Source of the DNA: a virus
Direction: 5' to 3' (one strand)
Length of the DNA: 44,583 nt
Virus record (IMG/VR): IMGVR_UViG_3300037258_000357
Span: 1-44,583 of that record
Every line of letters starts with the position of its first letter. The stretch's first letter is position 1. The notes beneath the pieces were generated by a model that saw only the letters and a program-made list of their open reading frames with translations, was not told the DNA's origin and did no database searches. Of this stretch, positions 354 to 43,839 are shown piece after piece. Made by a program: the position numbers and the translations under genes.

Positions 354-1334
354 TCAGAGCCGGTCACCGGGTGACAGCCGCTCGTGCGCGATCCGCGCCC
401 GGCCCTCCGCCAGCTCTCCCGCGTACACGTCGATCATCGCGCGCGTCTTCCACCCGGTGATCGCCATCAGATCCAGCTCCGTGCCGCCCGACAGCAGCCA
501 CTGGTGCGCCAGCGTCCGCCGGAACCGGTGCGGGTGCATCCCCTCAACCCCCGCCTGCCGCGCCCGCAGCGCCAGCAGCTCACGGATGCCGCTGACCGAC
601 AGCGAGCCGCGCAGGCCCAGCCACAGCCCCGGCTCCGCGGCGCAGGGATGCCGCATCCGCGCCCGCAGGTACCGGTCCAGCGCGCCGCACGTCTTGCGGC
701 CGATCGGCACCCCGGTCTCGTCGCCGCCCTTCAGCGTGACCACCAGCAGGCGGCGGCCGAGCTGGACGCTGGTCCGCTCGCTGTCGCCGGGCAGGTACTC
801 CAGCCCGGCCAGGCTGGACACGCGCATGCCGGTGTCGATCAGCACGCGCAGGACTGCCATGTCGCGGCGCTCAGTGAACCCGCTGCCCGCGCAGGCGGCG
901 AGCAGCCGGCGCAGCTCGCCGTCGCTGAATGGCGGCTTGCGGCGCCTGGGCACGGTGGGCGGCGTGATCCGTATCATCGGATTCACTGGCACAAGCTGCG
1001 GTTCCTCGGCCGCCAGCCATGTGAAGAACACGTGCAGGTTGCGGTAGTGGGTGGCGACCGAGGATGGGGCCAGGCTGGCCAGCTCGTCAGCGAGGAACCT
1101 GCGCAGGTCTTCGGTGGTGATGCCGGTGTGGGCCCCGTCCCCGGCCCACCCGATCAGGGCGCGCACGCCGGCGCTGTAGGTGCGCACGGTGTTCGCCGCC
1201 TTGTTCGCGCCCCGCAGCTCTAGGACCCAGGAGTCCAGCAGGTCCGCCAGCGGGACGGTTTCCTGGCGGAGCCGCGCCACGTTGCGGGCCATCAGCCCCG
1301 GCCCGCAACGTGCGTCGTGCAAATGCAATCCCAT
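354..1334 (-). CDS. int: tyrosine recombinase / phage integrase
   Basis: Site-specific recombinase of the lambda-integrase family, expected to integrate or excise the element through a covalent 3'-phosphotyrosyl intermediate. The N-terminal half is a SAM-like core-binding domain (TYSAGVRALIGW, then HYRNLHVFFTWL). The catalytic half carries the full set: Arg in DTGMRVSSLAGL, Lys in the strand after it (LKGGDETG), HxxR as HPHRFRRTLAHQ, the GW that replaces the second His, and the nucleophile Tyr in MIDVYAGE. Length, about 312-326 aa, is normal. The ATG at 1334 has no Shine-Dalgarno; an in-frame ATG at 1292 lies in the loop of a 13-bp hairpin with GGGG beside it and may be the true start. Leftmost gene, reading outward, as expected next to an attachment site. 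Confidence 0.93.
   Translation of the reverse strand: MGLHLHDARCGPGLMARNVARLRQETVPLADLLDSWVLELRGANKAANTVRTYSAGVRALIGWAGDGAHTGITTEDLRRFLADELASLAPSSVATHYRNLHVFFTWLAAEEPQLVPVNPMIRITPPTVPRRRKPPFSDGELRRLLAACAGSGFTERRDMAVLRVLIDTGMRVSSLAGLEYLPGDSERTSVQLGRRLLVVTLKGGDETGVPIGRKTCGALDRYLRARMRHPCAAEPGLWLGLRGSLSVSGIRELLALRARQAGVEGMHPHRFRRTLAHQWLLSGGTELDLMAITGWKTRAMIDVYAGELAEGRARIAHERLSPGDRL
1278..1312. promoter_or_regulatory. 13-bp inverted repeat over a possible integrase start
   Basis: 1278-1290 and 1300-1312 are exact reverse complements with a 9-base spacer. In the integrase mRNA the loop holds GGGG and the first two bases of the in-frame AUG at 1292. It could control translation, bind a protein, or simply be coding sequence if translation starts at 1334. 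Confidence 0.5.
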
Positions 1335-10012: not shown

Positions 10013-10300
10013 ATGGAAACCAACGACGCCGATCAGCGCGCCCGGCCGATCCTGCCCTTGGATGATCTGCTGCCCACATGGCAGGCGCTCCGCCTCCTGA
10101 AGCGGGAGCTAGAGGCGGCCGGGCATCCCGGCCTGATCGACGGCCATGGGCGGCGCTGGGCATGGAAGGCGGACGGCCTCTACCGCCACACCGCCACGGA
10201 AGCGTGCGCGGGACGCTGCGAAGGCGGAGCGGGGCATGGCGTCTTCGCGTGGCCGCGCTGCCTTCTCCCTGAGCCTGTGACCTTTGCAGAGGCGTCGTGA
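10013..10300 (+). CDS. small hypothetical protein upstream of serine recombinase
   Basis: 95 aa from the ATG at 10013; an in-frame GTG at 9977 is possible but has no ribosome site. A helix (PTWQALRLLKRELEAAGHPG) is followed by WAWKADGLYRHTATEACAG and CEGGAGHGVFAWP, with Cys, His and Trp residues that could bind zinc. Its stop overlaps the serine recombinase start (GTGA at 10297-10300), so the two are translationally coupled and the small protein could be an accessory or directionality factor. That link is inference. Confidence 0.6.
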   Translation: METNDADQRARPILPLDDLLPTWQALRLLKRELEAAGHPGLIDGHGRRWAWKADGLYRHTATEACAGRCEGGAGHGVFAWPRCLLPEPVTFAEAS

Positions 10301-11580
10301 ATGGCCCCCGCCGGGTCGTGCTCTACGCCCGGATCAGCGTCAGCAAGGAAGAGTCCGTCTCGGTGGAGCGGCAGCTCCAGGCGGGACGCAAGCTCGCCGA
10401 GGCGCGCGGATGGGAGGTTGCTGGCGAGTTCACCGACGATGGCGTTTCCGCAACCGCTAACCGGCCGGAGGATCGCCGCGGCTGGCAGGCGCTGCTCGCC
10501 GCCCGCGACTTTGACGCGGTCGTGATCTGGAAGGTGGACCGGCTCGCCCGGCGGGTCCTCGACTTCCTGCACGTGGATTCGGTTCTGCAGGAACGCGGCG
10601 CGGGCCTGATCGCCGTCGAGGACCCGATCGACATGACGACCCCGATGGGCCGCGCGTTCGCGACCATCCTCGCGGTGTTCGGCGAGATGGAGGCCGAGGC
10701 CATCCGGGCACGCGTCCGCGCCGCGCGGGCGCACCTGCTGAAAGAGGGCCGGTTCGCTGGCGGCGGCATCCCCTATGGGTACATGTCCGCGCCGAACCCG
10801 TCCGGTGCTGGCCGCATTCTGGTCAAGGACCCCGAGCGCATCGGGTGGCTGACCGAGATCATCGGGATGGCGCTGCGCGGCGAGACGATCGGCGCAATCA
10901 CCAGGTGGCTCACAGCCGAAGGCGCACCGCTTCCACGGCGGAGGAAACCTGGTGCCGCGTGGAACCGGCAGACGGTTGGCGGCTTGCTGCGGAACCCGGT
11001 CATCGCCGGGATGACACCGCGGAACCCGGGCCGCACGAGAAGCGGCAGCGGCAGGCAGGTTGACCCGTTCGCCGTAGTCCGCGACGAGCACGGCGAACCC
11101 GTGATTGACGAGTCGCTGGCCTTGATCACATTCGGCGAGTTCACGGCCCTGCAACAGCTCCTCGCGGCCCGGTCGGGCTCCCAGGGGCACAAGCAGGCCG
11201 GAGCGGCCGCAACGAGTTCGTTCCTGGCGCGTATCGCGGTGTGCGACGACTGCGGCGTGCCCATGACCTGCGGGACAAACCAGAAGAAGGCCATCCTCTA
11301 CTGCCCGCGGTGCCGCCAGGTGCAGGGGCGGTCGATGCTTGACCCGTACCTAGTGCGCCGCCTGCTGCGGGAGTGCGGGTCGCGGCCGCTCGGCGCGGCG
11401 ACCGTCCGCGACCACTGGCGGGCTGCGGGCACCGACGATGGCGCGCGCCGGGAGGTGCTGCTGAGCCAGCTCGGCAGCCTGCGTATCCGGCGTGGGCTCG
11501 CAGGCTCGCGCTTCGACAAGTCGCGGATTCTCCTGGTCTGGCAGGAGCCATCCCGGATGGAGGCTGCCGTGCCGCCCTAG
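10297..11580 (+). CDS. large serine recombinase
   Basis: 427 aa. Resolvase domain, residues 1-150: VVLYARISVSKEES with the nucleophile Ser after YARI, the VERQ helix, WKVDRLARR and the long helix FATILAVFGEMEAEAIRARV. The recombinase domain follows (GIPYGY, then QTVGGLLRNPVIAGM), then a zinc ribbon (CDDCGVPMTCGTNQKK, then YCPRC). All catalytic motifs look intact. It is shorter than phiC31-type integrases because the C-terminal part after the ribbon is only about 95 residues and shows no obvious long coiled coil. It lies mid-element rather than at an end, and the window already has a tyrosine integrase. Confidence 0.9.
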   Translation: MNGPRRVVLYARISVSKEESVSVERQLQAGRKLAEARGWEVAGEFTDDGVSATANRPEDRRGWQALLAARDFDAVVIWKVDRLARRVLDFLHVDSVLQERGAGLIAVEDPIDMTTPMGRAFATILAVFGEMEAEAIRARVRAARAHLLKEGRFAGGGIPYGYMSAPNPSGAGRILVKDPERIGWLTEIIGMALRGETIGAITRWLTAEGAPLPRRRKPGAAWNRQTVGGLLRNPVIAGMTPRNPGRTRSGSGRQVDPFAVVRDEHGEPVIDESLALITFGEFTALQQLLAARSGSQGHKQAGAAATSSFLARIAVCDDCGVPMTCGTNQKKAILYCPRCRQVQGRSMLDPYLVRRLLRECGSRPLGAATVRDHWRAAGTDDGARREVLLSQLGSLRIRRGLAGSRFDKSRILLVWQEPSRMEAAVPP

Positions 11581-11629: not shown

Positions 11630-11998
11630 GTGAGCGTGGGCTACAAGCTGTACCGCGAGGTCCGCGACTTCGCCCCGGCCAAATGGACGGCCAGCATGCG
11701 CCTCGTGGCCCTCATGATCGCGGACGCAGCTAAAGAGGAAAGCCGGATAGCCATCATCGCGCGGCCATTGCTGCGCGCCCGCACCGGCCTCAGGGAAAAC
11801 GGCCTGCGCGACGCGCTATACCACCTCGCGAAAGACGGATACGAATTCCGGATACCACGCGGGAAAGACAAGCGCGGACAGCCGGTATATGCCGCGAGAG
11901 GTTACGAGACCGATTATCAGGTGCCCGACATGGTGTCGGCGGGAATGGCTTCGATCACGGCCGCCGGAGACGGGGTGCCTGTGGAGAAACCTCCGTGA
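11630..11998 (+). CDS. HTH replication-type protein
   Basis: 122 aa. GTG start with GGAGAGG upstream. The N-terminus VSVGYKLYREVRDFAPAKWT and the following helix (RLVALMIADAAKEESR) match small helix-turn-helix proteins that sit in replication regions of actinobacterial plasmids and prophages. LRENGLRDALYHLAKDGYEF is the recognition-helix and wing region. In related genes the C-terminus runs on through Ala/Pro repeats. Here the frame stops at 11998 just as the DNA repeats begin, so it may be truncated by a frameshift. Likely a binding partner of the iterons that follow (inference). Confidence 0.6.
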   Translation: MSVGYKLYREVRDFAPAKWTASMRLVALMIADAAKEESRIAIIARPLLRARTGLRENGLRDALYHLAKDGYEFRIPRGKDKRGQPVYAARGYETDYQVPDMVSAGMASITAAGDGVPVEKPP

Positions 11999-12147
11999 AG
12001 GTGCGGTCACCACCGCACCTACCGACACCCAAAGGTGCGGTCACCACCGCACCAAACCAGCCTAAGGCGCGGTCCTCACCGCACCTTCCCGCCGAACCTG
12101 CGGTCACGCCCGCACCTTCCTGGGGGGGTAGGGGGGGTAACTCTTAG
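11995..12147 (+). pseudogene. possible frameshifted tail of the HTH gene
   Basis: A 50-codon frame from a GTG overlapping the HTH stop (GTGA). It reads Pro/Ala-rich repeats (PKGAVTTAPNQPK, PAEPAVTPAP) and ends in WGGRGGNS, encoded by two G7 runs at 12122-12128 and 12131-12137. This looks like the low-complexity tail that relatives of the HTH protein carry in frame. It is either a detached remnant, reached by slippage, or not translated at all. Confidence 0.3.
12000..12116. repeat. four iteron-like palindromic repeats
   Basis: Copies at 12000-12019 and 12034-12053 are identical (GGTGCGGTCACCACCGCACC), an 8-bp inverted repeat around four bases. Copies at 12066-12085 and 12097-12116 carry three and four mismatches. 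Start-to-start spacing is 34, 32 and 31 bases, about three helical turns, so all would face one side of the DNA. Two G7 runs and a consensus DnaA box (12255-12263) follow. This is the arrangement expected of a replication origin or an autoregulatory operator next to an initiator-like gene. Confidence 0.6.
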
Positions 12148-38746: not shown

Positions 38747-38973
38747 GCCTCGTTCGGCCAGAAGTGGTCGCCGCCACCCGGGATCGGCCCGGCGTGGTCA
38801 CCCTCGTGATCACAGTCGAACTTGCACTGGACGCCGACCGTTGCCAGAACCCACAGCGACGTGTGCCGGGTGGTCGCCCGGCAGCGCACGCGGAGCATTG
38901 GCGCGGGCGGGGGAATCGGCAGCGACGGCGGCGCACCACCCAGCTTGATCGCACGCGACTTCGGCACTCTCAC
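38743..38973 (-). CDS. small Cys/His/Trp mini-domain protein
   Basis: 76 aa. GTG start with GGGAGGA upstream. Basic N-terminus, Pro-rich stretch (GGAPPSLPIPPPAPM), then WVLATVGVQCKFDCDHEGDH and GGGDHFWP, the same C ... C-x-x-EGDH ... W mini-domain as in the early proteins at 2567 and 3211. Ends tail-to-tail with the lysin gene. A near-identical 69-base segment occurs upstream of both this gene and 39094-39465. Function unknown. Confidence 0.65.
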   Translation of the reverse strand: MRVPKSRAIKLGGAPPSLPIPPPAPMLRVRCRATTRHTSLWVLATVGVQCKFDCDHEGDHAGPIPGGGDHFWPNEA

Positions 38974-39037
38974 TGTTCGATCCTCCCACCTAGCGCAAGA
39001 CCAGGGCCACGGCGATCAGCACGCCCGTGAGCCCCAG
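38969..39037. repeat. 69-base duplicated segment, copy 1 (copy 2 at 39461-39529)
   Basis: The two copies differ at three positions. Each contains, on the minus strand, the end of a membrane microprotein, its TAG stop, a GGGAGGA ribosome site and the GTG start of the next gene. The copies lie 492 bases apart and point to a duplicated gene-pair module. Confidence 0.85.
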
Positions 39038-39130: not shown

Positions 39131-39465
39131 GGGCCATCAGGCACGCCGTAGTTCATGACCCACGTCCGGCTCAGCCGGTGTACTGGGAGGTCGTAGCTCA
39201 CCAGGAGAGCGAGGGCACGCCATCCGCAGGCCGGGGTTCCCTTGAACCGGATTGTCGGCTCGCGGTAGGCGTGTCCTTCGCCACCCTGGCAGGACTCATA
39301 GGTGGCGATGTCCGCATCGTTGAGGATCTGAACGGCGCGGACGATGCCCAGGTCCATGCACCCGCTTGCGTCGATCCTCTGCGCGAACTCCATGAGTTGC
39401 TCGCGGGTCCATCGGTGCGGGCTGTAGAAGCCGTGCTCTTCCAGCGCTGCGCTCGTTTTGCTCAC
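39094..39465 (-). CDS. conserved phage hypothetical protein
   Basis: 123 aa. GTG start with GGGAGGA upstream. Conserved family in actinobacterial phages with IATYESCQGGEGHAYREPTI in the centre, GWRALALLVSYDLPVHRLSR, and WVMNYGVPDGPCWEVTFTRP at the end. The paired Cys/His and strand pattern suggest a small enzyme-like or metal-binding alpha/beta fold. No function known to me. Leftward in the right arm of the element. Confidence 0.75.
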   Translation of the reverse strand: MSKTSAALEEHGFYSPHRWTREQLMEFAQRIDASGCMDLGIVRAVQILNDADIATYESCQGGEGHAYREPTIRFKGTPACGWRALALLVSYDLPVHRLSRTWVMNYGVPDGPCWEVTFTRPLD

Positions 39466-39481
39466 TGTTCGATCCTCCCAC

Positions 39482-39565
39482 CTAGCGCAAGACCAGGGCC
39501 GCGACGATCAGCACGCCCGTGAGCACCAGCACGGCCACGAGGACGACCCCCGCCACCCGGTTCAC
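39482..39565 (-). CDS. 27-aa membrane microprotein
   Basis: GTG start with GAGGTAGA upstream, in a GTGA overlap with the gene above it. Nearly the whole protein is one transmembrane helix (VAGVVLVAVLVLTGVLIVAA), ending LVLR. The ending is shared with the microprotein of copy 1, and the stop precedes the ribosome site of 39094-39465 by the same distance. Probably real but unknown. Confidence 0.5.
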   Translation of the reverse strand: MNRVAGVVLVAVLVLTGVLIVAALVLR

Positions 39566-39792
39566 TTCTCTACCTCGCCGCGCACGGCCCGGCCCTCCAG
39601 GACCGGCGCAGGCGGCCAGCCAGGCACCGGCCGGTGTGACCGGATGGGCGGCAGCACCGTGGCCGCTACGTGGATCACAGGAGCGCGCGGCTCGCCGAGC
39701 TGGTCGAGGTGCTGGACCAGCCACCAGATGCCCCCGTAGATGGCGGCCGTCAGCGCCAGGGCGGCGAACACCAGGACGATCAGCCAGGTCAT
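39562..39792 (-). CDS. small membrane protein
   Basis: 76 aa. N-terminal transmembrane helix (TWLIVLVFAALALTAAIYGG, then IWWLVQHLDQL) followed by a Pro-rich soluble tail (PPIRSHRPVPGWPPAPVLEG). ATG start in a four-base overlap with the gene above and GTGA overlap with the microprotein below, so part of a coupled leftward membrane-protein operon downstream of the translocase. Unknown function. Confidence 0.6.
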   Translation of the reverse strand: MTWLIVLVFAALALTAAIYGGIWWLVQHLDQLGEPRAPVIHVAATVLPPIRSHRPVPGWPPAPVLEGRAVRGEVEK

Positions 39793-40022
39793 ACGTCGCT
39801 CACGCCCTTCCGCTTGCCCAGCACCCAGTCAAGGAGACGGCGGCCCACCCTGATCCGCTCGCCCGTGCCCTTGCACACCCGGCAGCGGCCCCACGCCTTC
39901 GCCGTCGAGCCCGCGTTCCGGCCGCGCCGGCCACGGCACGCCCGGCACGGGCCGAACGGGAAGATCGCCCCGCGGATCAGCCAGATGCCGACAACCCCGG
40001 CGATGACGAGTACTAATGCCAT
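39789..40022 (-). CDS. membrane protein with DnaJ-type zinc-finger motif
   Basis: 77 aa. An N-terminal transmembrane helix (ALVLVIAGVVGIWLIRGAIF) leads to CRACRGRRGRNAGSTAKAWG and CRVCKGTGERIRVGRR. This is a pair of CxxC sites with the DnaJ-like CxxCxGxGxR flavour. Such helix-plus-finger proteins are common in actinobacterial mobile elements, role unknown. It is the first gene after the FtsK-like translocase, across a gap with the CCTAGACC repeats. Confidence 0.7.
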   Translation of the reverse strand: MALVLVIAGVVGIWLIRGAIFPFGPCRACRGRRGRNAGSTAKAWGRCRVCKGTGERIRVGRRLLDWVLGKRKGVSDV

Positions 40023-40031
40023 GCGTCCCCC

Positions 40032-40111
40032 CCTAGACCTGGCAAGGCCTAGACCTAGACCCTGCCCTAGACCCTGAAACCGCCGCTGACCTGCGCACTA
40101 GGGCCTAGACC
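40032..40111. repeat. five CCTAGACC 8-mers at the translocase 3' end (possible clt)
   Basis: Exact copies at 40032-40039, 40048-40055, 40054-40061, 40066-40073 and 40104-40111, all in one orientation; a further CTAG at 40098 is the translocase stop. CTAG is usually rare in bacterial DNA. In Streptomyces plasmids such as pSVH1, TraB binds clusters of 8-bp repeats (TRS) in a clt locus near traB to start double-stranded DNA transfer. Location and unit length fit that, but the 8-mer is not one I know. Confidence 0.55.
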
Positions 40112-42161
40112 CTGACGCGGTGAGCAGTGCCGAAACGTGCTCCAGGACGATCCCCTGCCGGTTGCGGCCCTTGCCGCTAGGGTCGCTGCCCCACATCTGG
40201 ACGCTCACGACCCCGTACACCGCCAGCGCCTTGCCGAGTTGCTCGGCCGTCCACCCGGAGTAGATTCCCGGCCGCAGCTCGGCCAGCCTGCGGCAGATCA
40301 CCTCCGACCACACCCGGTCCTCACCGCCCATCACCGCGGCTATGTCGGCCAGCAGCGACACGTCCGGTGCGGCCTCGTCCTGCTGGCCCGCCGCGTAGCC
40401 GGTCAGCCTGCCCGCGGCCTCGCGCGCCGCCCGGGCCCGCCGGGCGATCAGCTCGGCCGCCGGGTCGTCGGCGTAGTAGGTGCGGGTCACCTGCGGCTCG
40501 TCGGCCGCGCCGACCAGGTAGCCGACACCCCTGTCCTTCTTGGTGAACGTCGTCGCCCGCAGGCCCCGCTTGTAGGCGCCGGTGCCCAGGATCATGTCGT
40601 TCTCCACCTGGCCCATCACCTGGAGGCAGAACCGCACGCCGGCGTTAGCCGACACGCCGGTCGGCAGCGAGTCCTTGTCCGGCCGCTGCGTGGCCAGGAT
40701 CAGCATCACGCCCAGCGCGGGCCCGCGCTTGATGATGCCCAGGCACAGCTCTTCGGCTTCCTTCCAGGGCAGTTCCTGCGCCTCGTCGATCACGACCACC
40801 ACCGGGTGCAGGCCCAGGCTCTTGCGGCGCGCCAGTTCCGGCGTCACCTTGTTCTCCGGCCGCAGTTCCTTCGGCAGTCCGCGCAGCACGCTGGCCCGCC
40901 GGGGCAGGTCCTCGTAGACGGCTTTCAGGTCGGTCACGCAGGCGGCGATGTTCGCCTCGTCGACGCCGGACCCGTACCGGTGCGCGACCAGGCCGATGCT
41001 GTCCAGGTCGCCGGTGCCTTTCAGCTCCCACACGTGCAGTTCGGCGGTCACGTCCAGGGCCGCGCCGAGGCAGAGGATGCGGGCGGCCATCGTCTTCCCG
41101 CGCCGCGGGATCGACCCGATGAGCACATTGCTGAAGATCAGCTCCACGTCGACGGGGCGGCCGCGCTGGTCGGTGCCGTAGGGCAGCGGCCTGAAGATGC
41201 TCGTTGTCCCCGCCTTCGCCAGCGGGTGGGGTACTGGCCGGCCGCCGGACAGGTCCGTGTCGCCGACCCACATGACCAGGCGGCCCGCGTGCTGGTCATG
41301 CACCGGCTCAGGCCACACGCAGCCGAGCGGGCGCCGCAGCCCGGACGCCAGCCGGTCGCGGCGCTCGATCACGTCCACCGCGGTCACGCCGTAGGGCAGG
41401 TCCACCTCGGCCCGCCAGCCGGGGCCGTCGCGGTGCACCGGCCCGGCGAAGCTGACCGGCTCGCCGTGGCTCAGCGCCTGGTTGATCCCCGCGATGCCGA
41501 GCGACCCGAGCGCCCGCACCACGACGTCGGCGGTGAGCCTGGCCGCGCCGGGCTGGGACAGGACCGGCTCGTCCAGGTAGGGCCGGTCCAGGGACCGGCC
41601 CAGGTAGCCAAGCGCGGCGACGGCGGCCGCCGCTGCGGCCCACTTCGCATCGCCCCACTCCAGGTCGGCGACGGCTACGCCAATGAACCCGGCAATACCA
41701 GCCGCCAGGACGACCGCCAGCCGCAGCCGGGCGCGCTCCTTCCGCTGGCGGGACAGCCGCAGGTAGGAGGCGGGGTCGCGCTTGTCGACGGCGTCCAGGC
41801 GCAACGGGTGGCCTTCGGCGTCCAGGCACCAGCGGCGCAGCTCCCGGGCCAGCCGCCACGCACCCCGCGGCGTGTACTTCACCGACCGCCACCCGTACAT
41901 CGGCAGGCGCAGGGTATGGAAGGCGGTGTGGTGGGTGGAGTGCAGCCACGCCCACCGGGCCGCGGCCCGCCGGTGCTCGGCTGAGCGCAGCCAGGGGGCG
42001 ATGAGTGGCTTGCGGACGACGCCGTTGCGGGATACGGCGGCGGGCAGGTAAACGACCGCCTCGTCCGGGCCGCGCTGCGGCACGCGGCCCGGATCGGAGG
42101 CGGGCACCATCTCACGGCCGCCGTCGCCGGGCAGCGGCTCACCGGGGCCGTAGATGGTCAT
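40098..42161 (-). CDS. FtsK/SpoIIIE-type DNA translocase (TraB-like)
   Basis: 687 aa. Hexameric ATPase motor for double-stranded DNA. Two transmembrane segments near residues 150-200 (LAVVLAAGIAGFIGVAVADL, KWAAAAAAVAALGYLG). Walker A near 345 (LIGSIPRRGKTMAA), Walker B near 450 (PVVVVIDEAQELPWKEAEEL), and a sensor segment MLILATQRPDKDSLPTG. The C-terminal 80 residues look like a winged-helix gamma domain (WSEVICRRLAELRPGIYSGW ... GKGRNRQGIVL), the part with which TraB proteins read repeats. The whole layout is that of AICE translocases rather than chromosomal FtsK. ATG with AGGGGAA upstream. Confidence 0.88.
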   Translation of the reverse strand: MTIYGPGEPLPGDGGREMVPASDPGRVPQRGPDEAVVYLPAAVSRNGVVRKPLIAPWLRSAEHRRAAARWAWLHSTHHTAFHTLRLPMYGWRSVKYTPRGAWRLARELRRWCLDAEGHPLRLDAVDKRDPASYLRLSRQRKERARLRLAVVLAAGIAGFIGVAVADLEWGDAKWAAAAAAVAALGYLGRSLDRPYLDEPVLSQPGAARLTADVVVRALGSLGIAGINQALSHGEPVSFAGPVHRDGPGWRAEVDLPYGVTAVDVIERRDRLASGLRRPLGCVWPEPVHDQHAGRLVMWVGDTDLSGGRPVPHPLAKAGTTSIFRPLPYGTDQRGRPVDVELIFSNVLIGSIPRRGKTMAARILCLGAALDVTAELHVWELKGTGDLDSIGLVAHRYGSGVDEANIAACVTDLKAVYEDLPRRASVLRGLPKELRPENKVTPELARRKSLGLHPVVVVIDEAQELPWKEAEELCLGIIKRGPALGVMLILATQRPDKDSLPTGVSANAGVRFCLQVMGQVENDMILGTGAYKRGLRATTFTKKDRGVGYLVGAADEPQVTRTYYADDPAAELIARRARAAREAAGRLTGYAAGQQDEAAPDVSLLADIAAVMGGEDRVWSEVICRRLAELRPGIYSGWTAEQLGKALAVYGVVSVQMWGSDPSGKGRNRQGIVLEHVSALLTASGSRP

Positions 42162-42171
42162 TGGGGTTCCC

Positions 42172-42354
42172 CTAGCTCCAGAACGACTTCTTGCCGGACT
42201 TGCGGTCGCGCTGGTGGGCCAGCTTGCCCTTGGGCACGACCTTGCCGTTCCACCGCTCCGGGCCGCCGTGACCTTCCCGGAGGGGGCTCTTGTCGCGCCT
42301 GTTGCGGCCGGTGGCCCGGTCGATGTGCCCTGTCTTCTTGCTGAACAGTCCCAT
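42172..42354 (-). CDS. small basic protein
   Basis: 60 aa, 20 of them Lys or Arg (GLFSKKTGHIDRATGRNRRD, VPKGKLAHQRDRKSGKKS). ATG with a strong AAGGAGA site six bases upstream. Likely nucleic-acid binding or membrane-surface bound; not recognised. It lies between the DUF2637 gene and the translocase in the same leftward operon, 10 bases before the translocase, so it may belong to the transfer module. Confidence 0.65.
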   Translation of the reverse strand: MGLFSKKTGHIDRATGRNRRDKSPLREGHGGPERWNGKVVPKGKLAHQRDRKSGKKSFWS

Positions 42355-42368
42355 CGTGTTCTCCTTTC

Positions 42369-43166
42369 TCAGACGGCATGGCTGCCGTCTCCGTTGGGGT
42401 GGGCCCCCGCGCCAGCCAGAGTCCTGCCGTCACCGGGGGCAGGTGGCGGCGCTGGCGCGGGGGTGCGGCCGGGCGCGGGGGAACTCCGGCCCGGCCGCGT
42501 CGTGGCCCCCGCGCCACCGTGGGGGAGACGGTTGGCGGATGCCACCGGCGCGGGGGAGCCTGGAGCGGCTGGCACGCAAATCTTGCGGGCCTGTGCCCGC
42601 GTGATGCCGAACCGCTTGTGAAGCTGGTAGTCGCTGAGTGGGCTGCCGCTTCCCGCCGACGCGGCGTAGGCAGTCTCCGCCGCCTCGTACGCCGTTGCCG
42701 GAACCCAGGGCTGGCCAGCCGTTTTAAGTGTCTCCTTAACCGCTTCACCGGCCGGCGCGCGGACGGCCACCATGACCATCTCGACGAGTCCGGCGAACAC
42801 TGCCCCGGGCCATGCCGCGATGACCGCGCCCACGGGGCCGCTGGGAAGCCCGGAGGCCACGTTCGCGGCGACGGTGGCGGCGATGCCGGCCCACAGCATG
42901 AGGCGCGGCATGAACCGCTGGAGCCCTGTCAGCTCGACGCCCGCACGGAGCTGGAGCCAGAGCACCGCGGACGCGGCCACGATCAGCAGGTCGACGGAAA
43001 GCGGCATCAGGCGGGCGGCCACGCCGTGCTGCCCGTGGGCCGTCGCGAGGCTGTAGATGTGCTCGTAGCTGACAAGGAACGCGAACGCTGCGACGGCGCC
43101 GACGACGCCGTAGACGAGCCACCAGATCCACCTATCGGGATCCCGCCGGCCCTCGGTACTGTCCAT
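42369..43166 (-). CDS. DUF2637 membrane protein (SpdB-like)
   Basis: 265 aa. Four transmembrane helices: WWLVYGVVGAVAAFAFLVSY, then MPLSVDLLIVAASAVLWLQL with the conserved PLSVD motif, MLWAGIAATVAANVASGL, and AVIAAWPGAVFAGLVEMVMV. These are the DUF2637 hallmarks, a family tied to Streptomyces plasmid spread (Spd) genes. A variable cytoplasmic tail follows with a helix-turn-helix-like part (DYQLHKRFGITRAQARKI), then Pro/Ala-rich sequence. Function would be intramycelial DNA spreading with the translocase. It heads the operon with the 60-aa gene and the translocase. Confidence 0.85.
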   Translation of the reverse strand: MDSTEGRRDPDRWIWWLVYGVVGAVAAFAFLVSYEHIYSLATAHGQHGVAARLMPLSVDLLIVAASAVLWLQLRAGVELTGLQRFMPRLMLWAGIAATVAANVASGLPSGPVGAVIAAWPGAVFAGLVEMVMVAVRAPAGEAVKETLKTAGQPWVPATAYEAAETAYAASAGSGSPLSDYQLHKRFGITRAQARKICVPAAPGSPAPVASANRLPHGGAGATTRPGRSSPAPGRTPAPAPPPAPGDGRTLAGAGAHPNGDGSHAV

Positions 43167-43524: not shown

Positions 43525-43839
43525 GTGACCTTCGTGGAGATCGACATGTACTCTGACGTGCCGAGTTATCAGCAGGTGGCCGACCGCATCCGCGAGCAGA
43601 TCGCGGACGGCACCTACGAGCCGCACGCCCCGATCCCCTCGATAAGCAGCCTCCAGCAGCAGACCGGCCTGGCGGTCAACACGATCCGCAAGGGGCTGGC
43701 CATCCTTGAGACCGAAGGGCTGATCCGCACAGTGCCCGGCCGGGGCACGTTCGTCACCGAACGCGAAGAGCCCCACGGGGACTTAGCCCGTGGGGCTCAC
43801 TTGCTGCGGCCTGGCCGCGACGGGGGGCCGCCCGGCTAG
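43525..43839 (+). CDS. GntR-family regulator (KorA-like)
   Basis: 104 aa or less. Winged helix of the HutC/GntR type: VPSYQQVADRIREQIADGTY, PIPSISSLQQQTGLAVNTIR (recognition helix), KGLAILETEGLIRTVPGRGT with the wing GRGTFV. There is no effector domain, as in short KorA/KorSA-like repressors of actinomycete conjugative elements. Start GTG 43525 has no ribosome site; ATG 43546 has GGAG six bases upstream and would fit better. The last 25 codons contain a perfect hairpin and look less conserved. Presumably represses the transfer operon. Confidence 0.82.
   Translation: MTFVEIDMYSDVPSYQQVADRIREQIADGTYEPHAPIPSISSLQQQTGLAVNTIRKGLAILETEGLIRTVPGRGTFVTEREEPHGDLARGAHLLRPGRDGGPPG
43768..43798. terminator. 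bidirectional hairpin between convergent genes
   Basis: 12-bp perfect stem (43768-43779 with 43787-43798) with a 7-base loop, inside the 3' end of the GntR frame and 38 bases downstream of the stop of the convergent gene 43836-44261. It could end transcripts from both sides. No T-run. Confidence 0.6.

Follow-up and report, generated by a model that had tools for sequence, protein, structure and literature searches.

The window considered here, the whole stretch of 44,583 bp of viral DNA that was analysed, carries a cluster of short repeats at the 3' end of a gene encoding an FtsK/TraB-like DNA translocase. This cluster is interpreted, with a probability of about 0.8, as the recognition and loading site of the adjacent translocase, i.e. 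as a locus comparable to clt/TRS; neither binding nor transfer data are available.

The 8-mer CCTAGACC starts at positions 40032, 40048, 40054, 40066 and 40104, always on the + strand, with a 2-bp overlap between those at 40048 and 40054. An earlier note on this DNA had described five copies in one orientation, two of them overlapping, between 40032 and 40111, and a count over the whole window confirms this. The check that it proposed, counting the 8-mer in the whole 44.6 kb, was run and found no further copy, with 0.69 expected; this count covers the virus record only, without the host genome. As none of 100 dinucleotide shuffles made from the entire window contained as many as five copies, chance or composition as the cause of the repeats is ruled out by the shuffles together with the expectation of 0.69. 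The concentration of CTAG claimed by the same note is also borne out: six of these tetramers (40033, 40049, 40055, 40067, 40098 and 40105) lie within 73 bp, versus 29 in the entire window. Two of its claims had to be amended. The repeats are indeed located at the 3' end of the translocase gene, but this gene is on the minus strand (40098..42161), so that its 3' end includes the last copy and its TAG stop falls within a sixth, degenerate half-site. The 8-mer is a real repeat, but it is the half-site of a longer ordered element and not a stand-alone tandem repeat.

From sequence comparison, the five copies are the visible portion of this larger element, which is common to actinobacterial integrative conjugative elements (AICEs) and spans about 40025..40115 on the + strand (approximate borders, from alignment to relatives). 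It is organized around a core, CTGACCTGCG (40086..40095, +), which is found in most relatives whatever their half-site, and the CTAG tetramers of the window are located at offsets -54, -38, -32, -20, +11 and +18 from this core. All half-sites are read on the + strand. The right half of Box 1 is the copy at 40032..40039 (CTAG -54, an offset shared with relatives). Sequence count and offset alignment place the two half-sites of Box 2 at 40048..40055 (-38) and 40054..40061 (-32) and that of Box 3 at 40066..40073 (-20). Box 4 comprises a degenerate half-site, CTAGGGC, at 40098..40104 (+11), which includes the translocase stop codon TAG of the minus strand, and the CCTAGACC copy at 40104..40111 (+18), within the 3' end of the translocase gene. 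With respect to the translocase gene, whose stop codon it overlaps, the element has an inverted orientation. No Rfam RNA element was matched across the window and no tRNA that could provide an att context was found in it.

In the 100 bp that follow the translocase stop, 208 CTAG were counted over 54 loci, whereas the gene itself has about 0.02 per 100 bp. All six offsets of the window are occupied by CTAG in 44 of 127 relatives, most of which add a seventh at -60. The half-site reads CTAGACC in the window and mostly CTAGCRCC in relatives; as the letters differ at the same offsets, the layout is conserved while the sequence is changing. When aligned on the core (TGACCAG/TGACCTG), relatives display two palindromes of 12 bp (mostly GCTAGGTCTAGC and GCTAGACCTAGC), one isolated half-site, the core and a pair of direct half-sites. 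Inversion of the element relative to the translocase gene is found in the window and in three relatives, L184, L218 and L223. The stop codon is overlapped in the window, L218 and L223, and the element starts further downstream in L184. The core alone is a weak marker, since a loose pattern occurs on either strand in about one third of the background 160-bp windows; its value lies in its fixed spacing. No such element was found 3' of the translocase gene in the phage-type relatives L001/L046, L002, L003 and L054 (pPaSha2), so this location is not universal.

Other repeats were seen in some relatives. L228, a phage related to the window, has a GGTTACC/GGTAACC half-site around the same core, together with a different wing. 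Members of a further translocase class (L155, L157, L158, L160, L175, L176 and L224-L262) have wings such as ITKRGDGGSRKG and LTIRECCGGAKG, and CGAAACCGGTTTCG palindromes are present in their downstream DNA where this was read. GGAACAC repeats occur in L004 and L044. Additional classes of the wing/half-site code could be read. Repeat clusters are also found on the rep side, at about 10950-11130 in L007 and 3' of rep genes in L009, L011, L039 and L020/L021; GGTAGCGG clusters occur with a DUF3631-like RepAM, GTCAGC clusters with F8, and several have a core similar to CTGACCTGCG.

The translocase (P0001, 687 aa, 40098..42161, minus strand) was identified from NCBIfam, PHROG and AlphaFold/PDB matches. 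Judged by similarity, it is a distant TraB-like protein that does not qualify as a TraB equivalog: its match to the NCBIfam plasmid_TraB model is weak (36.5 bits), well under the cut-off of this equivalog (NF041214, 800 bits). Its PHROG match is FtsK/SpoIIIE-like (E 1.1e-21), and the best PDB match of the AlphaFold model of the full-length protein (pLDDT 86) is the FtsK motor (E 2.7e-14). The Walker A/B residues G355-K356-T357 and D459-E460 are invariant, as required for membership of the FtsK/SpoIIIE superfamily. A Pfam search gave no match at 1e-3. Structure models predict a C-terminal winged-helix domain (residues ~603-683, 40113..40355, minus strand), with helices at 603-611, 619-629 and 639-647 and wing strands at 654-659 and 665-672 in the full-length model; PDB matches of the C-terminus are mostly winged-helix proteins but are weak (E 0.06 and above). 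Two wing residues are of particular concern here, W657 in the first strand (codon 40191..40193, minus strand) and Q669 in the second (codon 40155..40157, minus strand).

The earlier note had proposed that covarying repeats be looked for in relatives, and this search was positive: the half-site varies with residues of the translocase wing. This relationship can be expressed as two rules. According to rule 1, an aromatic residue at position 657 goes with CTAG and a palindrome centre other than CG, and wings of the gap-GR/SR type go with an NCGN centre. In the first set of loci, the centre was CG in 0 of 25 aromatic cases versus 15 of 17 non-aromatic ones (Fisher 1.4e-9); in the enlarged set, all 90 aromatic loci had a non-CG centre and 43 of the 51 non-aromatic ones a CG centre. 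Rule 2 links Arg at position 669 to TAGC and other residues mostly to TAGA (115:2 versus 12:21, Fisher 3e-15). Exceptions to rule 2 are Lys at 669, found with both half-sites, TKYG proteins with TAGC and two NSRG proteins with TAGA. These Fisher values ignore relatedness. When the C-terminus was left out and the tree built from the motor part only, independent contrasts gave 9-10 to 0 for rule 1 (p about 0.004) and 8 to 0 for rule 2 (p about 0.008). L014 and L055, which are sisters on this tree, illustrate such a change, as their palindrome centre and wing changed together.

Both rules were formulated after inspection of the first locus sets, and only a set of viral contigs (71 proteins) was held out. 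Rule 1 fits 21 of the 21 scorable cases in this set, which included too few non-Arg proteins for rule 2. An automatic alignment was used for the wing residues, and it includes a few rows with frameshifts or truncation. The window itself, with W657, Q669 and a CTAGA half-site, agrees with the rules, but it was part of the set from which they were built, so this agreement shows consistency but does not amount to an independent prediction. The same residues emerged when every one of the 687 translocase columns was scanned without prior choice: the seven best columns for the centre trait lie within 656-666, and for the TAGC/TAGA trait residue 669 comes first, with a normalised MI of 0.57 versus 0.25 for the next column. 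At matched loci, the columns of the integrase, of the GntR-type regulator and of F1, the family of the 77-aa protein encoded next to the element, predict the half-site worse than the best translocase column; for the F8 Rep set (13 loci, 692 columns), one Rep column ties with the best translocase column. At the level of sequence, these data show that the repeats coevolve with the translocase wing.

Could the cluster be something other than a site read for transfer? Rep-bound iterons of a replication origin also combine direct and inverted repeats, and a core similar to CTGACCTGCG is found in repeat clusters 3' of the rep genes of relatives, which implies that the core is not transfer-specific. 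This reading is nevertheless improbable, because several relatives have a second and different cluster on the rep side (GGTAGCGG or GTCAGC) besides the one at the translocase, the window has another iteron-like cluster (11990-12130), and the half-site tracks the translocase wing, one Rep family being found with different half-site classes. Repeats of iterons would be expected to follow the Rep in type and not the translocase; this was not observed, although only a small Rep set was scanned. The element also lies just upstream of the start of F1, and its palindromes are typical of operators, so that the translocase or another protein might bind it in order to control the downstream 77-aa gene without any role in transfer; binding by the wing would by itself be no proof of transfer. 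Such an operator is quite improbable given that the layout is kept despite its inversion relative to the genes (window, L184, L218 and L223) and that the pWTY27 site, at the same place, is required for transfer.

Binding by the GntR-type regulator of the module was also considered, as its gene borders the module, many relatives have one, and TAGACC resembles the half-sites of some HutC/GntR operators. It is very improbable that the repeats are its operators: neither the GntR gene nor its divergent promoter has a CCTAGACC nearby, a GntR gene is found near just 25 of the 54 loci, its columns reach 0.48 versus 0.70 for the translocase over the same 22 loci, and the best predictor of the half-site is the translocase wing. 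Arrays of short repeats occur near the core of attP sites, and the phage does have a tyrosine integrase; arm-type attachment sites of this integrase have next to no chance of being the explanation, since its gene (354-1292) is at the opposite end of the window, the element of relatives stays with the translocase gene and not with the integrase gene, and integrase columns predict the half-site less well.

The window is a temperate tailed phage of actinobacteria that carries an AICE-type transfer module. It encodes a tyrosine integrase, RecT, a PD-(D/E)XK protein and a serine recombinase, together with virion proteins identified by PHROG matches (terminase, portal, head protease and minor tail proteins). 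That the window might be an AICE was ruled out by these virion genes, and no AICE-type rep was recognized. The set of genes in its right arm is common to integrative elements of actinobacteria, in which replication genes, an excisionase-like gene and an integrase gene come next; L055, an annotated circular example, has the same gene order with Prim-Pol and integrase genes. In the window, this set comprises a GntR-type regulator that borders the module (43525..43839, +; Pfam PF00392, E 2.7e-17), a DUF2637 protein that is the second gene of the module (42369..43166, minus strand; Pfam PF10935, E 1.3e-10), the translocase, and a 77-aa membrane/zinc-ribbon-like protein homologous to F1 (39789..40022, minus strand), whose gene starts just past the element and comes after the translocase gene in most relatives. 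A 60-aa ORF (42172..42354, minus strand) lies between the DUF2637 and translocase genes. The DUF2637 protein is labelled 'excisionase' by PHROGs (phrog_733), which looks like a mislabelling given its context beside translocases.

Several other features of this phage were noted. Its two recombinases are the tyrosine integrase (354-1292, minus strand) and the serine recombinase (10297-11580, +). Two near-identical copies of a ~60-bp direct repeat, cactgttcgatcctcccacctagcgcaagaccagggcc..., lie about 490 bp apart (~38970-39030 and 39462-39522) and flank a small ORF. The cluster at 11990-12130 consists of GGTGCGGT-CACC-ACCGCACC palindromes directly 3' of a 122-aa ORF (11630-11998) without any PHROG match, and is a candidate for the replication origin of the phage. 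The related phage L228 has homologues of the tail and lysis regions of the window and a DUF2637 protein that is 63% identical. The module is also found in L218 and L223, which encode endolysins, and in L035, which encodes a tape-measure protein; the plasmid pPaSha2 of Pseudonocardia alni carries terminase and capsid genes. Some viral contigs may be misfiled AICEs, the phage identity having been checked only for L228, L218, L223, L035 and pPaSha2. Among GenBank records of phages, only an FtsK with 28% identity was found, hence no close annotated precedent, and a scan with the terminase found a single near relative.

It is thus very probable, though inferred from sequence as regards the transfer function, that the translocase reads these repeats as TraB reads clt/TRS. 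The proposal of a clt/TRS-type locus made in the earlier note gains support from the wing covariation and from a position like that of the pWTY27 clt; the inversion of the element, its conserved core and the tailed-phage carrier had escaped that note. Such a locus should be a cluster of short repeats beside the translocase gene, which is the case here, and should be recognized by the C-terminal winged helix of this translocase, which is met by covariation only, the winged helix being predicted. The process could be viewed as follows. The C-terminal winged helix would bind the CTAGACC half-sites, held at a fixed spacing around the core CTGACCTGCG; as inferred from covariation, W657 would read the centre/CTAG side and position 669 the base after TAG. 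Several winged helices bound to this fixed array would then set the translocase ring on the duplex of the element and not on host DNA, by inference from TraB and FtsK. The membrane-anchored motor would finally pump the circular double-stranded DNA into a neighbouring cell or mycelial compartment, a process known from AICEs and Streptomyces plasmids and established for TraB only. Direct binding of the repeats by the translocase therefore remains an inference, and both hexamer loading and pumping of double-stranded DNA rest on analogy with other TraB proteins.

The presence of the module in a temperate tailed phage suggests that the excised prophage may gain a second route of spread, from cell to cell. 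A broader scenario, about which doubt slightly outweighs confidence, is that of an actinophage lineage with a complete AICE-type module for transfer of double-stranded DNA (translocase, DUF2637 and its own clt), which would move the prophage or excised genome from cell to cell or through septa without virions, the wing-clt code setting which elements each pump moves. For the large family of AICE/phage translocases, the present data supply a clt-like layout exact to the base, and the two residue-to-base rules predict which translocase reads which half-site. The question of cross-mobilization thereby becomes directly testable, and the possibility of a conjugative route for temperate phages is raised. 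Searches of the open-access literature found neither a clt of the CTAG type nor any tailed actinophage described as carrying a TraB/clt module.

The motor fold of the window translocase is shared with the FtsK-KOPS and SpoIIIE-SRS systems (PDB match FtsK), in which the C-terminal winged helix reads 8-bp DNA motifs. KOPS are scattered over the chromosome with a polarity, whereas the window has one dense cluster. Among AICEs, those with Prim-Pol, RepAM or RepPP modules (Ghinet 2011, PMC3218068) have the homologous translocase, DUF2637, GntR and F1 genes and the 3' element; in contrast to them, the window has terminase, portal, protease and tail genes and no recognized AICE-type rep. A clt-like site of this sort is undescribed so far for most integrative elements, and no clt has been described for pSAM2 (PMC9513070). 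The clt/TRS repeats known from plasmids are 8 bp long in pSVH1, 5 bp in pIJ101 and 9 bp in pJV1; those of pSVH1 are read by helix alpha-3 of the C-terminal winged helix of TraB, a hexameric FtsK-like protein that transfers double-stranded DNA (summarised in PMC3583192 and PMC4170104). Unlike the repeats of these three plasmids, the half-sites of the window form overlapping palindromes together with direct repeats, all at set distances from a core, and in its family covariation points to the wing, whereas helix alpha-3 is the reader in pSVH1. The clt of the Streptomyces plasmid pWTY27 consists of four TGACACC repeats where the translocase gene ends, is footprinted by TraA, which binds 16 bp inside traA plus adjoining DNA, and is essential for transfer (PMC3583192). 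The element of the window likewise spans the 3' end of the translocase gene and the adjacent DNA. It differs in repeat sequence and spacing, and pWTY27, for which neither a layout conserved family-wide nor covariation with the wing has been reported, is a theta plasmid and not a phage. Compared with these systems, the fixed palindromic layout, the conserved core, the putative recognition by the wing and the tailed-phage carrier appear to be new.
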